64,000 nucleotides of DNA from Actibacterium sp. (GTDB lineage Bacteria > Pseudomonadota > Alphaproteobacteria > Rhodobacterales > Rhodobacteraceae): assembly GCA_016278325.1 (NCBI GenBank), contig JADQCB010000031.1, forward strand, positions 1 through 64,000, written 5' to 3'. The position numbers and the translations under genes are program-made. Of the stretch, positions 45,049-58,815 are shown in pieces. How positions within the stretch are numbered: the stretch's first letter is position 1; each line of letters starts with the position of its first letter. The notes under the pieces are model-generated. The model was not told where the DNA came from. It searched no databases and saw only the letters and a program-made list of their open reading frames with translations.

Positions 45049-46161
45049 ATGAGCAACCCTTCCCTTCTGATCCTGCCCGGCGACGGAATTGGGCCCGAAG
45101 TCATGGCCGAGGTGCGCAAGGTCATCGACTGGTTCGGCGCCAATCGCGGCCTGACCTTCGACGTGGACGAGGATCTGGTCGGCGGTTGTGCCTATGACGC
45201 GCATGGAACGCCGCTGACCGACGCGACCATGGAGAAGGCACAGGCGGTCGATGCGGTGCTTCTGGGCGCTGTCGGTGGCCCGAAATACGACAGTCTCGAT
45301 TTCTCGGTAAAGCCCGAGCGCGGCTTGCTGCGTCTTCGCAAGGAAATGGATCTTTATGCCAACCTGCGCCCGGCCCAGTGTTTCGATGCGCTGGCCGATT
45401 TCTCGTCGCTCAAGCACGACGTGGTTGCCGGGCTGGACATCATGATCGTCCGCGAACTGACCTCGGGTGTCTATTTCGGCGAACCGCGCGGCATCGTCCG
45501 GGAGGGCAACGAGCGGGTGGGCATCAACACCCAGCGCTATACCGAATCGGAAATCGCCCGCGTCGCCCGCGCCGCGTTCGAACTGGCCCGAAAGCGTGAC
45601 AACCGGGTCTGCTCGATGGAAAAGGCGAATGTCATGGAATCCGGCGTGCTGTGGCGCGACGTGGTGCAGGAAGTGCACGATGCCGAGTATCCCGATGTGG
45701 AGCTGAGCCACATGTATGCCGATGCCGGCGCGATGCAGCTGACCCGCTGGCCCAAGCAGTTCGACGTGATCGTGACCGACAATCTTTTCGGCGACCTGCT
45801 GTCGGATCTGGCGGCGATGCTGACGGGAAGCCTCGGGATGCTGCCCTCGGCCAGCCTCGGGGCGCCGATGGCCAATGGCCGGCCCAAGGCGCTTTACGAA
45901 CCCGTCCACGGCTCGGCCCCCGACATCGCCGGGCAGGGAAAGGCCAACCCCTGCGCCTGCATCCTGAGTTTCGCCATGGCGCTTCGCTATTCCTTCGACC
46001 TGGGGGAAGAGGCAACGCGGCTGGAGCAGGCGGTGCAGAAGGTGCTGGCCGATGGCGTGCGCACCGCCGACCTGATGCAGAGCGAGGCGGGCGCGACCCC
46101 GGCCACGACCGCGCAGATGGGCGACGCGGTGATCGCCGCGTTGCAGGCATCCCAGGCGTGA
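45049..46161 (+). CDS. leuB: 3-isopropylmalate dehydrogenase
   Basis: The 370-residue NAD-dependent enzyme oxidises and decarboxylates 3-isopropylmalate. Motifs are [35 protein letters not shown], the metal/substrate region [16 protein letters not shown] and [12 protein letters not shown]. Third leucine-pathway gene of the window; 110 nt after the EEP gene. Confidence 0.97.
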
Positions 46162-46200: not shown

Positions 46201-46547
46201 ACGCCGGACGCGGCCGGAGGAACTGCCGTGCAAGACCGGGCGGATGCGCCCATGGAGCGGATACCGGCGGTCGAACCGGCCGCGCCCCGGCCGTCGCGAT
46301 GGTCGAGGCGTGCCACCCGATCGGGCCGCAGCGCGCAACCGCCTATCGGCTGCGGTGGCCGACCGGTCGTGACCCATGATCCGGCAACCGGAAAGATCAC
46401 GTAAGCCCCGGCGACCGTAGCCCTTTCAAACCGCCTGCCGCCGAAATCGGCGAAACCAGCGCCGCGGGTCCGGCCAGGCAGGCTGCGACCAGGCTGGCCC
46501 GCCTTTCAGCCGGCCGCTTCGGGGCCGACCGTCCCTTCGGCGCGACG

Positions 46548-46577
46548 TGGCCCCGCTGTTGCCGGCGGGGCCATTTT
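46548..46577 (+). terminator. Rho-independent terminator before the flavin-redox cluster
   Basis: TGGCCCCGC (46548-46556) pairs perfectly with GCGGGGCCA (46565-46573), followed by TTTT. It isolates the next cluster from leuB transcription. Confidence 0.8.
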
Positions 46578-46672
46578 CCTGACGGCAAGCTGAAGCGGGA
46601 ATCGCCACGCCGTCAGGAAGCGCTCAGGTCGGTTCCACAGATTGGCCTGAGCAGACGAAAGGAGATCCTGCC

Positions 46673-47056
46673 ATGAGAAAGACCCTGACACTTCTCGTTG
46701 CCTCCACGGCGTTGACCGCCGCCATCGGCGTTCCGGCCTGGAGCGCGATGCAGGCACCGGCCGGGAGGGGCCTGGGGCCCGTCGCCGCGCTCTTCGAAGA
46801 GGATCCGCAAACGATGCCGCTCATCCTTGCAAGCGACGATGATGACGACCGCGGCTGGCGAGAGGGATCGCGGCGCGGCGATGACGACGACGATGACGAC
46901 GAGGAGGATGAAGACGACGATGATGATGACGGGTGCGACGACGATGAAGGCGTCTGCCGCGGCGGCGCCCGCAATCCCGCGCCCGCCGGAACGGTTGCAC
47001 CTCCGCAGAACGGGCTCTTTGAAAACGGCGCCCCGCCGCAAGTTCAGGTGAACTGA
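46673..47056 (+). CDS. Asp-rich secreted protein, first gene of the flavin-redox cluster
   Basis: The 127-residue product has a signal peptide (LTLLVASTALTAAIGVPAWS, cleavage near residue 25). It then has a nearly pure Asp/Glu run (DDDDD at 55-59 and about 20 acidic residues at 70-92) with Cys88 and Cys95, and a Pro/Gly tail. AAAGGAGAT precedes the ATG. The acidic stretch could bind cations such as calcium or iron. I do not recognise a family. DUF2271 follows after 39 nt. Confidence 0.8.
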   Translation: MRKTLTLLVASTALTAAIGVPAWSAMQAPAGRGLGPVAALFEEDPQTMPLILASDDDDDRGWREGSRRGDDDDDDDEEDEDDDDDDGCDDDEGVCRGGARNPAPAGTVAPPQNGLFENGAPPQVQVN

Positions 47057-47095
47057 GCCGCCCCGCAGCCCCCTCTCCGAACAAGGATCCAACCG

Positions 47096-47566
47096 ATGAA
47101 ATCGCTACTCGGAACGCTTGCGCTCACCACCGCGCTCACGATTCCCGGTCTCGCCATGGCACGCTCGGTGACGCTGACCACGACGCTGAACAACTATGGC
47201 GGCGACGGGGCCTATCTCGCGCTTTACGTCACCGACGCTTCGGGCGCCTATGCCGGCAGTCTCTGGATGGCCGGCGGAAAGTCGAAATACTATGAGCATC
47301 TGCGCGACTGGTACCGCGCCACGGGCGGCGACACCGCCCAGGTGAACGGCATCACCGGCGCCAGCGTCGGGGCGGGCCGCACGCTGGAGGTCACGCTCGA
47401 CCTTGCCGATGCGCTGTTCGACGCGGGCTATACCCTTCACATCGACGCGGCTGTCGAGGATCTGCGCGACAGCCCGAACGAGGTGGCGGTGCCTCTGACC
47501 GCGGAGGGCGCGGGCACGCCGGTGCAGGGCCGCCGCTACATCGCCAGCTTCGTCTACGACATGTAA
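47096..47566 (+). CDS. DUF2271 periplasmic protein, candidate flavinylated carrier
   Basis: The 156-residue product has a signal peptide (MKSLLGTLALTTALTIPGLAMA) and matches the DUF2271 pattern (YLALYVTDASGAYAGSLWMA, YYEHLRDWYRATGGD). The stretch NGITGAS (84-90) resembles the D-x-x-[ST]-G-A-[ST] motif to which ApbE attaches FMN, with Asn for Asp and Ser90 as the acceptor. DUF2271 genes are known neighbours of PepSY reductases and ApbE. Flavinylation is inferred. Confidence 0.8.
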   Translation: MKSLLGTLALTTALTIPGLAMARSVTLTTTLNNYGGDGAYLALYVTDASGAYAGSLWMAGGKSKYYEHLRDWYRATGGDTAQVNGITGASVGAGRTLEVTLDLADALFDAGYTLHIDAAVEDLRDSPNEVAVPLTAEGAGTPVQGRRYIASFVYDM

Positions 47567-47578
47567 GGAGGCCGGGAG

Positions 47579-49786
47579 ATGATCCGTGCGCTTCACCGCT
47601 GGCCGGGTCTCCTGGCCCTGGCGCTCATCACCATCCTCGCGCTCAGCGGTGCGGCGCTTTCGGTCTTCCCCGCGGCCGAGCGGCTGGCCGCGCCGCAGGC
47701 GAAGGCCGGCCTGAGCGTTGCCACCCTGGCCGAGCGCATCAAGGCGGTCTATCCGGGTGTCGAGCAGATCCGCCGGGCGCCCTCGGGCCGGATCACCGCC
47801 TACTGGTTCGATCAGGGCAGGCCGGGTGCGGCCGTGATCGACCCCGCGACCGGGCAGGGCGTGGCCTCGGCCGACCCGAACCAGATGCTTCGCTGGCTGA
47901 CCAACCTGCACCGGGCGCTGTTTCTCGGGGATGGCGGGCGCATCGCCATGGCCGGGGCGGCGGCGGCGATGCTGGTCCTTTCGTTCTCGGGCGCGGCGCT
48001 GGTCGCGCGGCGGGCGGGCGGCTGGCGGCACTGGTTCGCACGCTTGCGCGGTCCGCTCGCCGGGCGCCTGCATGTCGAGATCGCCCGGATCGCGGTGATC
48101 GGCCTTGTCCTGTCCTCTGCCACCGCCCTGTGGATGACGGCCTCGACCTTCGATCTTCTGCCAGACGGCGACGCCATACCCGCGTTCCCGGCCGAGGTGA
48201 GCGGCGAGACGGGGATCGAATTGCATCGGATGGCCACGTTGCGCCGGACGCCCGTCGCCGAGCTGCGCGAACTGAGCTTTCCCTATCCCGGCGATGCGAC
48301 GGATGTCTTCACGCTCAAGACGGACCGGGGGACCGGGTATCTCGACCAGGGCACCGGTGCGCTGATCGCCTGGGAAGACCTGAGCGGGTGGGCGCGCGTC
48401 TCGGAAACCATCTACATGCTGCATACCGGCCAGGGCGCGGCGACGCTGGGGCTGGTCCTGGGGCTGATGGCGCTCGGGGTGCCGGCGATGGGCGCGACCG
48501 GCGTGCTGGTCTGGCGCGCCGGCCGGCGCGGGCGGCCGCGCATCCGGGGCAATCGACCGGCGGGGCGTGCCGAGACGATCGTGCTTGTCGGCAGCGAGGG
48601 TGGCAGCACCTGGGGCTTTGCCGCGACGCTTCACGCCGCGCTGAGCGAAGCCGGGCAGAACGTCCATGTCGGCCCGATGTCGGGATTCGCGCCGGAACGC
48701 TACATCCGGGCCGAGCGGATCATCGTGCTCGTCGCGACCTATGGTGACGGTGCGGCGCCTGCCTCGGCCAGGGGGTTCCTCGACCGGCTGGACGCCGCCG
48801 ATCGCGCGCCGGCCCTTCCTCTGGCCGTTCTCGGCTTCGGCGATCGCAGCTTTCCGGCCTATTGCGCCTTCGCCAGGGCCGTTGCGACAGCCGCCGAGGC
48901 GAAGGGCTGGCCCGAGCTTCTGCCGCTTGCCACGGTCGATCGCCAGTCGGAGCAGGATTTCGCGCGCTGGGGCCGTGCGCTCGGCCAGGCGCTGGGAATC
49001 CCCCTGGAGCTGGCGCACCAGCCGGTTCCGCCGGCGACCGAGACACTGACCCTCGTCTCGCGCCGTGATTATGGCGCCCAGGTGCAGGCCCCGACCGCGA
49101 TCCTGCGCTTCGCATTGCCGCGCGTCTCTCTGTGGCAACGGCTGTCCGGCGCAAGTTTCGCCCGGTTCGCGGCGGGCGACCTGATCGGCATCCTGCCCGA
49201 GGGCAGCAGCGTCCCGCGGTTCTATTCGCTCGCCTCCGGGCGTCGCGACGGGTTCATCGAGATCGTCGTGAAGAAGCATCCCGGCGGCCTGTGCTCGGGT
49301 CAGCTCACGGCTTTGGAGCCGGGGCAGACGGCGACCGGCTTTCTGCGCCGCAATCCGGGCTTCCGCCCCGGGCGTGGCCGGGCGCCGCTGATCCTGATCG
49401 GCGCCGGCACCGGCATCGGGCCGCTGGCGGGTTTCGTGCGCGGCAATGCGCGGCGCCGGCCCGTGCACCTGTTTTTCGGCATGCGCCATCCCGACAGCGA
49501 TTTCTTCTATGGCGAGGAGATGCCGGCCTGGCAGGCGGAACGCCGCCTGACCCGGCTGGTCACGGCCGTCTCGCGCGTGGCCCGGCCCAGCTATGTGCAG
49601 GACGCGCTGCACGGTGACGCCGCCGAGGTGGCCCGGCTGATCCGCGACGGGGCGCGCGTGATGGTCTGCGGCGGGCACGACATGGCGGCGGGCGTGGCCG
49701 ATGCGCTGGCCGAGATCCTCGCGCCGTCGGGGCTCTCGCCCGAGGCCCTGAAGGCAAAGGGACGGTATGTCGAAGATGTCTACTGA
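47579..49786 (+). CDS. PepSY-TM / flavodoxin / ferredoxin-NADP-reductase fusion
   Basis: The 735-residue inner-membrane protein has membrane segments at about 9-31, 121-143, 167-187 and 287-312, with two periplasmic PepSY-type loops. Conserved His (His6, His111, His165, His282) near the helices could carry heme. Residues about 333-480 are a flavodoxin domain (LVATYGDGAAPASARGFLDR, LGFGDRSFPAYCAFA). The rest is an FNR module (RFYSLASG, LILIGAGTGIGPLAGFVRG, C-terminal GRYVEDVY). It should carry electrons from NAD(P)H across the membrane. AAGGAGG precedes the ATG. Confidence 0.9.
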   Translation: MIRALHRWPGLLALALITILALSGAALSVFPAAERLAAPQAKAGLSVATLAERIKAVYPGVEQIRRAPSGRITAYWFDQGRPGAAVIDPATGQGVASADPNQMLRWLTNLHRALFLGDGGRIAMAGAAAAMLVLSFSGAALVARRAGGWRHWFARLRGPLAGRLHVEIARIAVIGLVLSSATALWMTASTFDLLPDGDAIPAFPAEVSGETGIELHRMATLRRTPVAELRELSFPYPGDATDVFTLKTDRGTGYLDQGTGALIAWEDLSGWARVSETIYMLHTGQGAATLGLVLGLMALGVPAMGATGVLVWRAGRRGRPRIRGNRPAGRAETIVLVGSEGGSTWGFAATLHAALSEAGQNVHVGPMSGFAPERYIRAERIIVLVATYGDGAAPASARGFLDRLDAADRAPALPLAVLGFGDRSFPAYCAFARAVATAAEAKGWPELLPLATVDRQSEQDFARWGRALGQALGIPLELAHQPVPPATETLTLVSRRDYGAQVQAPTAILRFALPRVSLWQRLSGASFARFAAGDLIGILPEGSSVPRFYSLASGRRDGFIEIVVKKHPGGLCSGQLTALEPGQTATGFLRRNPGFRPGRGRAPLILIGAGTGIGPLAGFVRGNARRRPVHLFFGMRHPDSDFFYGEEMPAWQAERRLTRLVTAVSRVARPSYVQDALHGDAAEVARLIRDGARVMVCGGHDMAAGVADALAEILAPSGLSPEALKAKGRYVEDVY

Positions 49787-50747
49787 CCTGGTCCGCCATG
49801 CCATGAACGGCCCGACCATGGGCACAGGCTGGTCCGCGCTGTTCTTTGCGCGGCCGGGGTTTGATACCGCCCCGGTCCGCGCGGCCTTGCAGGCCGCCGT
49901 CGACGAGGTGGATGCGCAGATGTCCACATGGAATCCCGACAGTGATCTCATGCGACTTAACGCGGCGCCGGTGGGCGCGTGGGTGGCGGTGCCCGATCGG
50001 CTGCGGGCGGTTCTGCGACTGGCGGTCGAGATCGGTCGTGCATCGGGTGGCGCCTTTGATATTGGCATGGGCGATGCGGTGACGGCCTGGGGGTTTGGAC
50101 CGGATGCGGCGACATCCGAAGGCATTTCCACCGCGATGCGGATCGACCGGGTGCCCGCACATGATGCGCTGGAGATTGAAGCGGGCAGCGGCCTTGTCCG
50201 AAAGACGTCGCCCGCTGCGCTCGACCTGAACGGCATCGCCAAGGGGTATGGCGTCGACCGGCTGGCCGAGACGCTGGTGGCGCATGGTTTCGGCAACGCC
50301 CTGGTCGGGATCGACGGCGAGATGCGCGCGCTCGGGTTCCGACCCGACGGGCAGGGCTGGACCATCGCGGTCGAGGCACCAGAGCCCGGGCGCCGGGCGC
50401 CGCATTCGATCCTCGCGCTGCATGATGCCGCCGTGGCGACCTCGGGCGATTACCGCCACTGGGTGGAGGTCGGGGGGCGGCGCCTGTCGCACACCATGGA
50501 CCCGACCCGCGGCGCGCCGCTGATCGCGTCGCCGGCCTCTGTCACCGTCGTGGCGCGCAGCTGTGCCGAGGCCGACGCCTGGGCAACGGCGCTCATGGTG
50601 CTCGGGCCGGAGGCGGGCGCGGCACTGGCAAGACGACACGGCCTCGACGCCCTGTTCCTTGTGCGTGCCGAAGACGGCAGCGCACGCGGCGTGGGGGGCG
50701 GGCGGCTGTTCGGCAACGGGTCCGGAGAAATGCCTGAAAACCGGTGA
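49767..50747 (+). CDS. apbE: FAD:protein FMN transferase
   Basis: The 326-residue product shows ApbE signatures: GPTMGTGWSALF, DEVDAQMSTWNPDSDLMRLN, GGAFDIGMGDAV, DLNGIAKGYGVDRLAE, and the metal-site YRHWVEVGGRRLSHTMDPTR. It transfers FMN from FAD to Ser/Thr of target proteins. No signal peptide or lipobox is seen at MSKMSTDLVRHAMNGPTMGT, which is unusual because ApbE normally works outside the cytoplasm. It overlaps the preceding gene by 20 nt. Confidence 0.95.
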   Translation: MSKMSTDLVRHAMNGPTMGTGWSALFFARPGFDTAPVRAALQAAVDEVDAQMSTWNPDSDLMRLNAAPVGAWVAVPDRLRAVLRLAVEIGRASGGAFDIGMGDAVTAWGFGPDAATSEGISTAMRIDRVPAHDALEIEAGSGLVRKTSPAALDLNGIAKGYGVDRLAETLVAHGFGNALVGIDGEMRALGFRPDGQGWTIAVEAPEPGRRAPHSILALHDAAVATSGDYRHWVEVGGRRLSHTMDPTRGAPLIASPASVTVVARSCAEADAWATALMVLGPEAGAALARRHGLDALFLVRAEDGSARGVGGGRLFGNGSGEMPENR

Positions 50748-58111: not shown

Positions 58112-58815
58112 TGCCCGACATGGCCATGCCGCATCTTCTGATCGTGGATGACGACGAACGGATCCGCGGCCTGTTGCACAAGTTCCTTGCCCGGAACGGC
58201 TTTCTCGTCAGCGCGGCGCGCGATGCCGGTCATGCCCGGCGGCTTCTGACCGGGCTCGAATTCGACTTGATCGTGCTCGACGTGATGATGCCGGGCGAGG
58301 ACGGGATCAGCCTGACCCGCGACCTGCGTGAACGGATCGCGACGCCGATCCTGCTTCTGACGGCCCGGGGCGAGACCACCGACCGCATTGCCGGGTTTGA
58401 GGCCGGGGCCGATGACTATCTGCCGAAACCGTTCGAGCCGAAGGAGCTTCTGCTGCGGATCAACGCGATCCTGCGCCGCGTGCCGCAGCCCCAGATCCGG
58501 GTGACCGGTCCGAAATTTCTGCATCTCGGGCCGGTGCGTTATGACATCGAGCGCGGCGAGATGTGGAGGGACGACCGCCCGATCCGGCTGACCGCGACGG
58601 AAAGCCAGCTGATGCGCATTTTCGCCGCCTGTCCCGATGAGGCCGTGACGCGCCAGAAACTGGTCGAGGATCTGGGGCGCGGGGACGGGCAGGCGCAGGA
58701 ACGCGCCGTGGATGTGCAGATCACCCGGCTGCGCCGAAAGATCGAGGCCGACCCGAAACAGCCCCGGTATCTTCAGACGGTGCGCGGCGCGGGCTACATG
58801 CTGTCCCCGGACTGA
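58108..58815 (+). CDS. petR: OmpR-family response regulator PetR
   Basis: The 235-residue product has a receiver domain with the acidic pocket IVDDDERIRG, the phosphoacceptor Asp58 in LIVLDVMMPGEDG and the Lys in YLPKPFEPKEL, and a winged-helix output domain (RQKLVEDLGRGDGQAQERAV, RYLQTVRGAGYML). No histidine kinase is adjacent; the MarR protein PetP takes that place, as in Rhodobacter. Confidence 0.92.
   Translation: MMPDMAMPHLLIVDDDERIRGLLHKFLARNGFLVSAARDAGHARRLLTGLEFDLIVLDVMMPGEDGISLTRDLRERIATPILLLTARGETTDRIAGFEAGADDYLPKPFEPKELLLRINAILRRVPQPQIRVTGPKFLHLGPVRYDIERGEMWRDDRPIRLTATESQLMRIFAACPDEAVTRQKLVEDLGRGDGQAQERAVDVQITRLRRKIEADPKQPRYLQTVRGAGYMLSPD

Follow-up and report, generated by a model that had tools for sequence, protein, structure and literature searches.

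If a compact set of genes can carry electrons across the membrane, what switches it on, and where do the electrons go? The question is raised by four genes in a 64 kb stretch of an Actibacterium genome (the whole stretch is called the window hereafter; the genome, of 3.25 Mb, is called the window genome). In order they encode an Asp-rich protein, a DUF2271 protein, a PepSY–flavodoxin–FNR fusion and ApbE. We think it probable that this operon is a trans-membrane reductase of the PepSY/DUF2271/ApbE kind, driven by reduced nicotinamide adenine dinucleotide phosphate (NADPH), switched by a two-component system and forming part of a metal-stress response. The redox core is already known. The two-component variant, a regulon of three operators and an ApbE lacking a signal peptide go beyond the preliminary description of this DNA, whose interpretation missed both the absent signal peptide and the membership of the operon in a larger two-component regulon.

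The preliminary description had four closely spaced genes, in the domain order given above, and this is correct. All four open reading frames are present and intact on the forward strand, the strand also of the hairpin, operator, tail and flavinylation site located below, and the Pfam matches agree with the order, except that the acidic reading frame has no family match above cut-off. The set is kept together, in the same order, in most of 80 relatives and so does not consist of chance reading frames. These 80 rank highest by DUF2271 similarity among 257 relatives found for the DUF2271 protein, and counts per 80, 79, 78 or 75 refer to them throughout; many are near-identical and plasmid-like, so that the counts are not independent, and some of the loci end at contig ends, which affects counts of neighbours. 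The relatives that bear names are mainly Rhodobacteraceae and Roseobacteraceae. The association of ApbE, PepSY and DUF2271 in extracytosolic flavin electron transfer, invoked earlier as known, is indeed a published type of cluster: DUF2271 is included in 2833 of 3220 PepSY-like clusters (PMC8238504).

What accompanies the four genes? In 75 of the 80 relatives a response regulator and a kinase of the PmrA/QseB type are encoded divergently, upstream of the operon. A ferric-reductase-like partner is encoded in 35 relatives and a cytochrome b561 in 33, the other 12 having neither; in nearly all relatives the gene for this partner is preceded by one for a small PepSY_2 protein. A heavy-metal P-type ATPase (48/80) and a VIT1 transporter (45/80) lie mostly downstream. 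The window has the core but no sensor pair, like the relative L058, for which the full upstream flank is available. In the window genome the locus is spread over three contigs, namely the window contig, C28 and C33. The response regulator and the kinase on C33 are respectively 86% and 71% identical to the proteins of the relative L087; on C28 are a PepSY_2 protein 70% identical to the L092 query and a b561 69% identical to the L074 query. The locus has two halves that can be found separately, as in the loci L262 and L263 from the genomes G067 and G087: both have the sensor pair, PepSY_2 proteins, b561 and operators, with no DUF2271, reductase or ApbE nearby.

Are these scattered fragments joined by a common regulator? 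A double operator, a predicted response-regulator site, lies ahead of the window operon at 46579..46627. It consists of CTGAC-N6-CTGAA (46579-46594) and the inverted GTCAG-N6-CTCAG (46612-46627), 33 bp apart from start to start. The 64 kb of the window contain no half-site besides those at 46579 and 46612, and the chance expectation for the pattern CTGACN6CTGAAG is 0.01. Of the 75 divergent promoters in the relatives, 71 contain CTGAC-N6-CTGAA together with its inverse at a distance of 33-34 bp; the same geometry was met in 234 of 15,000 random stretches of those loci, stretches that could include the promoter itself. When up to two mismatches are allowed, the 49-bp double operator is found at exactly three places in the 3.25 Mb, and the control, the operator read backwards, at none. 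The three places are before the window operon, before the PepSY_2–b561 genes of C28 and before the regulator of C33, the last with one mismatch; at zero mismatches only the first two remain. Most intact loci have a second operator ahead of the gene for the Asp-rich protein or its counterpart (slot 3 of the locus), in the same position as in the window, so that each fragment of the split locus has retained its own site. We conclude that a predicted three-site regulon in the window genome is well supported, and the response regulator of C33 would be expected to bind all three operators.

How far does this operator extend? Of 292 genomes from the order, 45 contain it, and the control matched none of the genomes listed. 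It is present in 40 of the 49 genomes with DUF2271 and in 5 of the 243 without (Fisher p 7e-35, a significance overstated by the relatedness of the genomes). Two of the five, G067 and G087, carry the sensor, PepSY_2 and b561 (L262, L263); in G007 none of the locus genes is near the operator; G193 and G205 are the other two. Neither strict nor relaxed versions were found in the loci on Klebsiella, Cupriavidus and Rhizobium plasmids or in L174 and L175, so that the CTGAC operator is a feature of the group around the window.

How might the electrons cross the membrane? The fusion protein (47579..49786, 735 residues) joins PepSY_TM to flavodoxin and to a reductase module for flavin adenine dinucleotide (FAD) and NAD(P)H. 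It matches PF03929 (E 8e-31), PF00258 (E 2e-12), PF00175 (E 6e-12) and PF00970 (E 4e-4), the first above the cut-off and over model positions 2-293 of 295. The C-terminus, previously described as flavodoxin/FNR, is like a diflavin reductase, and its flavodoxin and FAD/NAD(P)H domains, with their matches to CysJ and cytochrome P450 reductase (CPR), bear this out. The match to the CysJ model TIGR01931 (E 8e-37) falls below the equivalog cut-off, so the fusion is not CysJ itself. By sequence the reductase half resembles CysJ and the reductases of P450 and nitric oxide synthase (NOS), and its fold matches are CysJ, P450 reductase and NOS reductase; searched against PDB sequences by itself, the PepSY_TM half gave no meaningful match. 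In the PepSY half His6, His111, His165 and His282 are invariant (78/78 sequences), and the order of the helices in a structure model (predicted local distance difference test, pLDDT, 76, lower in the helices) would put two His on each side of the membrane. From this model we infer a heme pairing of His6 with His165 on the inner side and of His111 with His282 on the outer side. NADPH would reduce the cytosolic module of FAD and flavin mononucleotide (FMN), and electrons would cross on the two b-hemes so held. They would then reach FMN on Ser90 of DUF2271 and pass from it to an acceptor in the periplasm, for which an oxidised metal ion, by analogy iron, is the likeliest candidate. A second candidate site of flavinylation, SGAS at residue 523 of the reductase, was rejected: the commonest variants among the 78 sequences carry other residues there.

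Is DUF2271 a plausible carrier of that FMN? The protein (47096..47566; PF10029, E 6e-35) has an apparent Sec-type signal peptide and a predicted flavinylation site, NGITGAS (47345..47365), with Ser90 as acceptor. The [S/T]GA[S/T] motif is present in 80/80 relatives. No FMN_bind and no NqrB/RnfD protein was found in the 3.25 Mb genome, which leaves DUF2271 as the sole recognisable ApbE substrate. The earlier suggestion that DUF2271 is a flavinylated carrier gains from both the motif and this exclusivity, and keeps the status of a prediction. A structure model of the protein (pLDDT 65) did not match any PDB entry with an E of 0.001 or lower. Signal peptides, here and below, were assessed by a hydrophobicity window, the lipobox and eye rather than by SignalP. 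DUF2271 looks Sec-exported, and its hydrophobic N-terminus corresponds to the inclusion rule of PMC8238504, a signal peptide on at least one target gene. Export by the Tat route was considered and dropped: the window protein has no twin-arginine motif, and the few ‘RR’ hits in the outgroup are n-region residues of the MRRLL type or residues upstream.

If DUF2271 is exported, on which side of the membrane does it receive its flavin? ApbE (49767..50747; PF02424, E 6e-78), the FAD:protein FMN transferase, is encoded by a gene that shares 20 nt with the reductase gene, and it is the only ApbE of the 3.25 Mb genome. It has no signal peptide: the N-terminus is not hydrophobic, and only 5 in-frame codons lie upstream of the start. 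The relatives agree, with 5 in-frame codons before the start in 74 of 78 and no hydrophobic N-terminus in any of the 78. The most hydrophobic 10-residue stretch scores a median of 0.83 (maximum 1.76) in ApbE versus 1.85 (minimum 1.75) in the DUF2271 signal peptides. Among ApbEs of the same order (the best-scoring 30 among the matches listed), a lipobox-type signal and an 11-residue score of at least 2.07 are found in 24/24 of those encoded away from a PepSY reductase; 6/6 of those beside one have no such signal and score at most 0.66. Of 40 DUF2271 loci sampled outside the order, ApbE was detected in 27, and 23 of these score below 2.0 and 4 above (L167, L169, L170, L179). The DUF2271 proteins of these outside loci have mostly ordinary Sec-type signals; in L169 and L170 DUF2271 lies within longer frames. 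In L142-L181 an R-[VI]-L-[IV]-P stretch often takes the place of a signal peptide at the start of ApbEs whose genes adjoin classic DUF2271 genes.

Could ApbE reach the periplasm by an unrecognised export route and flavinylate there in the conventional manner? Most bacterial ApbEs are apparently secreted, and a cytosolic Salmonella ApbE did not complement (PMC12052999); moreover the cognate ApbE of A. ursilacus was expressed ‘signal peptide-truncated’ (PMC8238504), so that not all ApbEs of DUF2271 lack a signal. Set against the 78 relatives with no hydrophobic N-terminus, 74 of them with room for only 5 codons ahead of the start, we regard this route as unlikely. A cytosolic ApbE is known for a soluble fumarate reductase (PMC12052999). 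Because ApbE has no signal peptide while DUF2271 looks Sec-exported, DUF2271 may be flavinylated before export, with ApbE loading FMN in the cytosol. A limited literature search turned up no report of flavin attachment ahead of export. In its full form, which we put forward tentatively, the proposal is that DUF2271 would obtain its FMN in the cytosol from the signal-less ApbE, cross by Sec with the flavin covalently attached, and act in this lineage as the electron outlet of a metal-stress regulon under two-component control, which one double operator defines.

To what would the sensor respond? The best PDB matches of the response regulator are BasR/PmrA, with CarR lower, and for the L087 regulator the PmrA and QseB models lead. 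A separate OmpR-type response regulator lies in the window at 58132-58803 and is 33-35% identical to the cluster regulator of L087. On C33 a cation-transporting P-type ATPase (L123:293-3094; Ca/Mg-like by eye, 30-32% identical to the heavy-metal ATPase) ends about 200 bp ahead of the response regulator. The heavy-metal ATPase of the relatives has a TPC motif and matches general heavy-metal and cadmium-family models of NCBIfam; an assignment to the P1B-5 subclass is not claimed. PepSY/DUF2271 clusters have been linked to iron (PMC8238504, PMC12004947), and BqsS uses an ExxE motif to sense Fe2+ (PMC12666569). Kinases of this sort can be under the control of small PepSY proteins, DbfQ being an example (PMC12714742). 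Iron would be the metal by analogy only.

Several points weigh against a metal-stress reductase of the proposed kind. In the stretches of the window genome that were examined, neither the metal ATPase nor the cluster VIT1 has an ortholog, the best VIT1 match being 32%, so that the metal link is one of kinship. The ExxE motif by which BqsS senses iron is not kept: the corresponding residues are QENAQ in the window genome and RETAE in 55 of 75 aligned kinases (its own included). The window acceptor residue is Ser, whereas FMN attachment in the A. ursilacus DUF2271 was shown, by mutation, at a related Thr site (PMC8238504). Finally, PepSY_TM proteins can also serve copper, as does CrpH (PMC13038864).

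Might the operon simply serve uptake, by reducing ferri-siderophores or ferric iron, in the way proposed for the Fur-controlled PepSY/DUF2271/DUF4198 clusters? PepSY-like systems, VciB and Fur control are precedents (PMC8238504), and a Caulobacter PepSY/DUF2271 locus is Fur-controlled and needed under ethylenediaminetetraacetate (EDTA; PMC12004947). In the conserved gene set, however, no TonB receptor, DUF4198 or ferrous uptake gene was seen; what the relatives carry instead are an efflux-type ATPase, VIT1 and a two-component system, and plain iron assimilation is in our estimate rather improbable. Copper or another redox metal, with Cu(I) being made for detoxification or for assembly of cytochrome oxidase, appears less probable again. 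Bordetella CrpH, a PepSY_TM protein, supports heme-copper oxidases (PMC13038864), and the window genome's kinase also matches heavy-metal (copS/silS) kinases, below the cut-off; yet the regulator is closer to PmrA/BasR and QseB than to CopR/CusR, the VIT1 of the relatives suggests Fe or Mn, and no copper gene was seen in the conserved set. A last alternative is envelope redox repair, in which an oxidant-responsive sensor would direct electrons to an oxidised periplasmic protein as in MsrPQ. The cytochrome b561 and ferric-reductase-like proteins that accompany the operon are in keeping with it, as is a presumed likeness to HprRS/MsrPQ; but the conserved set has no MsrP-like gene, and the ATPase and VIT1 of the relatives favour metals, so that we give repair little credence. 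The reduction of a metal ion as part of a stress response remains the interpretation that we prefer.

What is the part played by the first gene? It encodes a secreted Asp-rich protein of 127 residues (46673..47056), with a signal-like N-terminus by eye and an Asp/Glu-rich stretch at residues 55-92 (46835..46948). No match above cut-off was found in Pfam or NCBIfam; the reading frame is nonetheless a real gene, because its C-terminal tail is conserved. This tail, GGARNPAPAGTVAPPQNGLFENGAPPQVQVN (46961..47053), with its NGLF, is present in 79/80 relatives, the remaining one, L081, beginning within it. Slot 3 holds an acidic protein in 42 of 79 relatives and a PepSY_2 domain protein in 37, as typed by script (L086, scripted as acidic, has a BLAST match to PepSY_2), and both forms end in the same tail, ..NPAPAGTVAPPQNGLFGNGAPPQVQVN. 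A weaker version is seen by eye in the Rhizobium, Cupriavidus and Klebsiella plasmid copies. The constant part of the slot-3 protein is the tail, not the acidic run, and a tail shared by both forms suggests a common docking partner. The preliminary description made the acidic protein a possible metal acceptor. This is not supported: PepSY_2 occupies the slot in about half of the relatives, and L263 retains the slot with no DUF2271, so the slot-3 protein need not be the acceptor of the reductase. Whether acidic or PepSY_2, it would buffer metal in the periplasm or act as a signal partner, and would not be an obligatory acceptor.

How does the system compare with those already described? With the PepSY-like clusters of Meheust et al. 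2021 (PMC8238504) it shares the three core proteins and the [S/T]GA[S/T] motif, and subsets of those clusters have a NAD-binding domain on the PepSY protein, or VIT1. It differs in its two-component system and operator, the PepSY_2 or acidic protein with its tail, the b561 or ferric-reductase-like partner and the Ser acceptor; neither DUF4198 nor a TonB receptor was seen here, and the two-component form is not described in the portion of PMC8238504 available. Like the FoxB/PepSY_TM ferrisiderophore reductases (PMC11334425) it has PepSY_TM with four conserved His, which would form two pairs. Here, however, PepSY_TM is fused to a CPR-like diflavin reductase, and FoxB is not among the PDB matches listed, so that the likeness rests on Pfam and on that paper. 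DbfQRS and BqsRS (PMC12714742, PMC4682146) likewise place a small PepSY protein by an OmpR-type regulator and kinase and use a direct-repeat operator; BqsR of P. aeruginosa binds TTAAG-N6-TTAAG, pentamers with the same 6-bp spacer (PMC4682146). The pentamers here are CTGAC/CTGAA instead of TTAAG, ExxE is not kept in the window genome, and the regulon includes a flavin reductase. The cytosolic ApbE of Klebsiella (PMC12052999) also has no signal peptide, but its substrate, the fumarate reductase, is a soluble cytoplasmic enzyme, whereas the only recognisable substrate here has an export signal.

As to the flanks of the operon, the terminator placed in front of it by the preliminary description corresponds to a real, terminator-like structure: a hairpin at 46547-46574 (-24.9 kcal/mol, z -4.6 against 200 shuffles) is followed by TTTT, the whole occupying 46547..46578. 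A generic terminator scan of the window did not list it, because the T run is short, and a sigma-70 scan gave no promoter match. Upstream of the operon is leuB (45049-46161), which in Defluviimonas denitrificans lies directly downstream of ApbE (L074:9763-10869). Elsewhere about 2.6 kb separates the reductase from ApbE (L097:8675-11256), and in L057:6483-6848 the reductase match ends after 122 residues.

The module travels on plasmids. Of 72,556 plasmid records, 97 carry a DUF2271 relative, and 71 of the 97 are typed conjugative. Salipiger pTPRO2 has the full set with two operators, and Cupriavidus and Rhizobium plasmids carry the sensor, DUF2271, reductase and ApbE. In the copy on a Klebsiella oxytoca plasmid (L281:8941-12695) the last part of the PepSY gene is overlapped by a transposase gene, and the genes listed ahead of VIT1 do not include ApbE. 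An acid-stress paper on R. leguminosarum does not name the genes of the locus.

The double operator connects one predicted regulator and one DNA site with three target loci, and could lead to the physiological signal that is missing for a widespread type of redox cluster. The side of the membrane on which DUF2271 is loaded with flavin is a clear yes-or-no question, and the sequences favour the unexpected side. Were it so, an extracytosolic flavoprotein would be loaded before its export, and FAD would no longer be needed in the periplasm.

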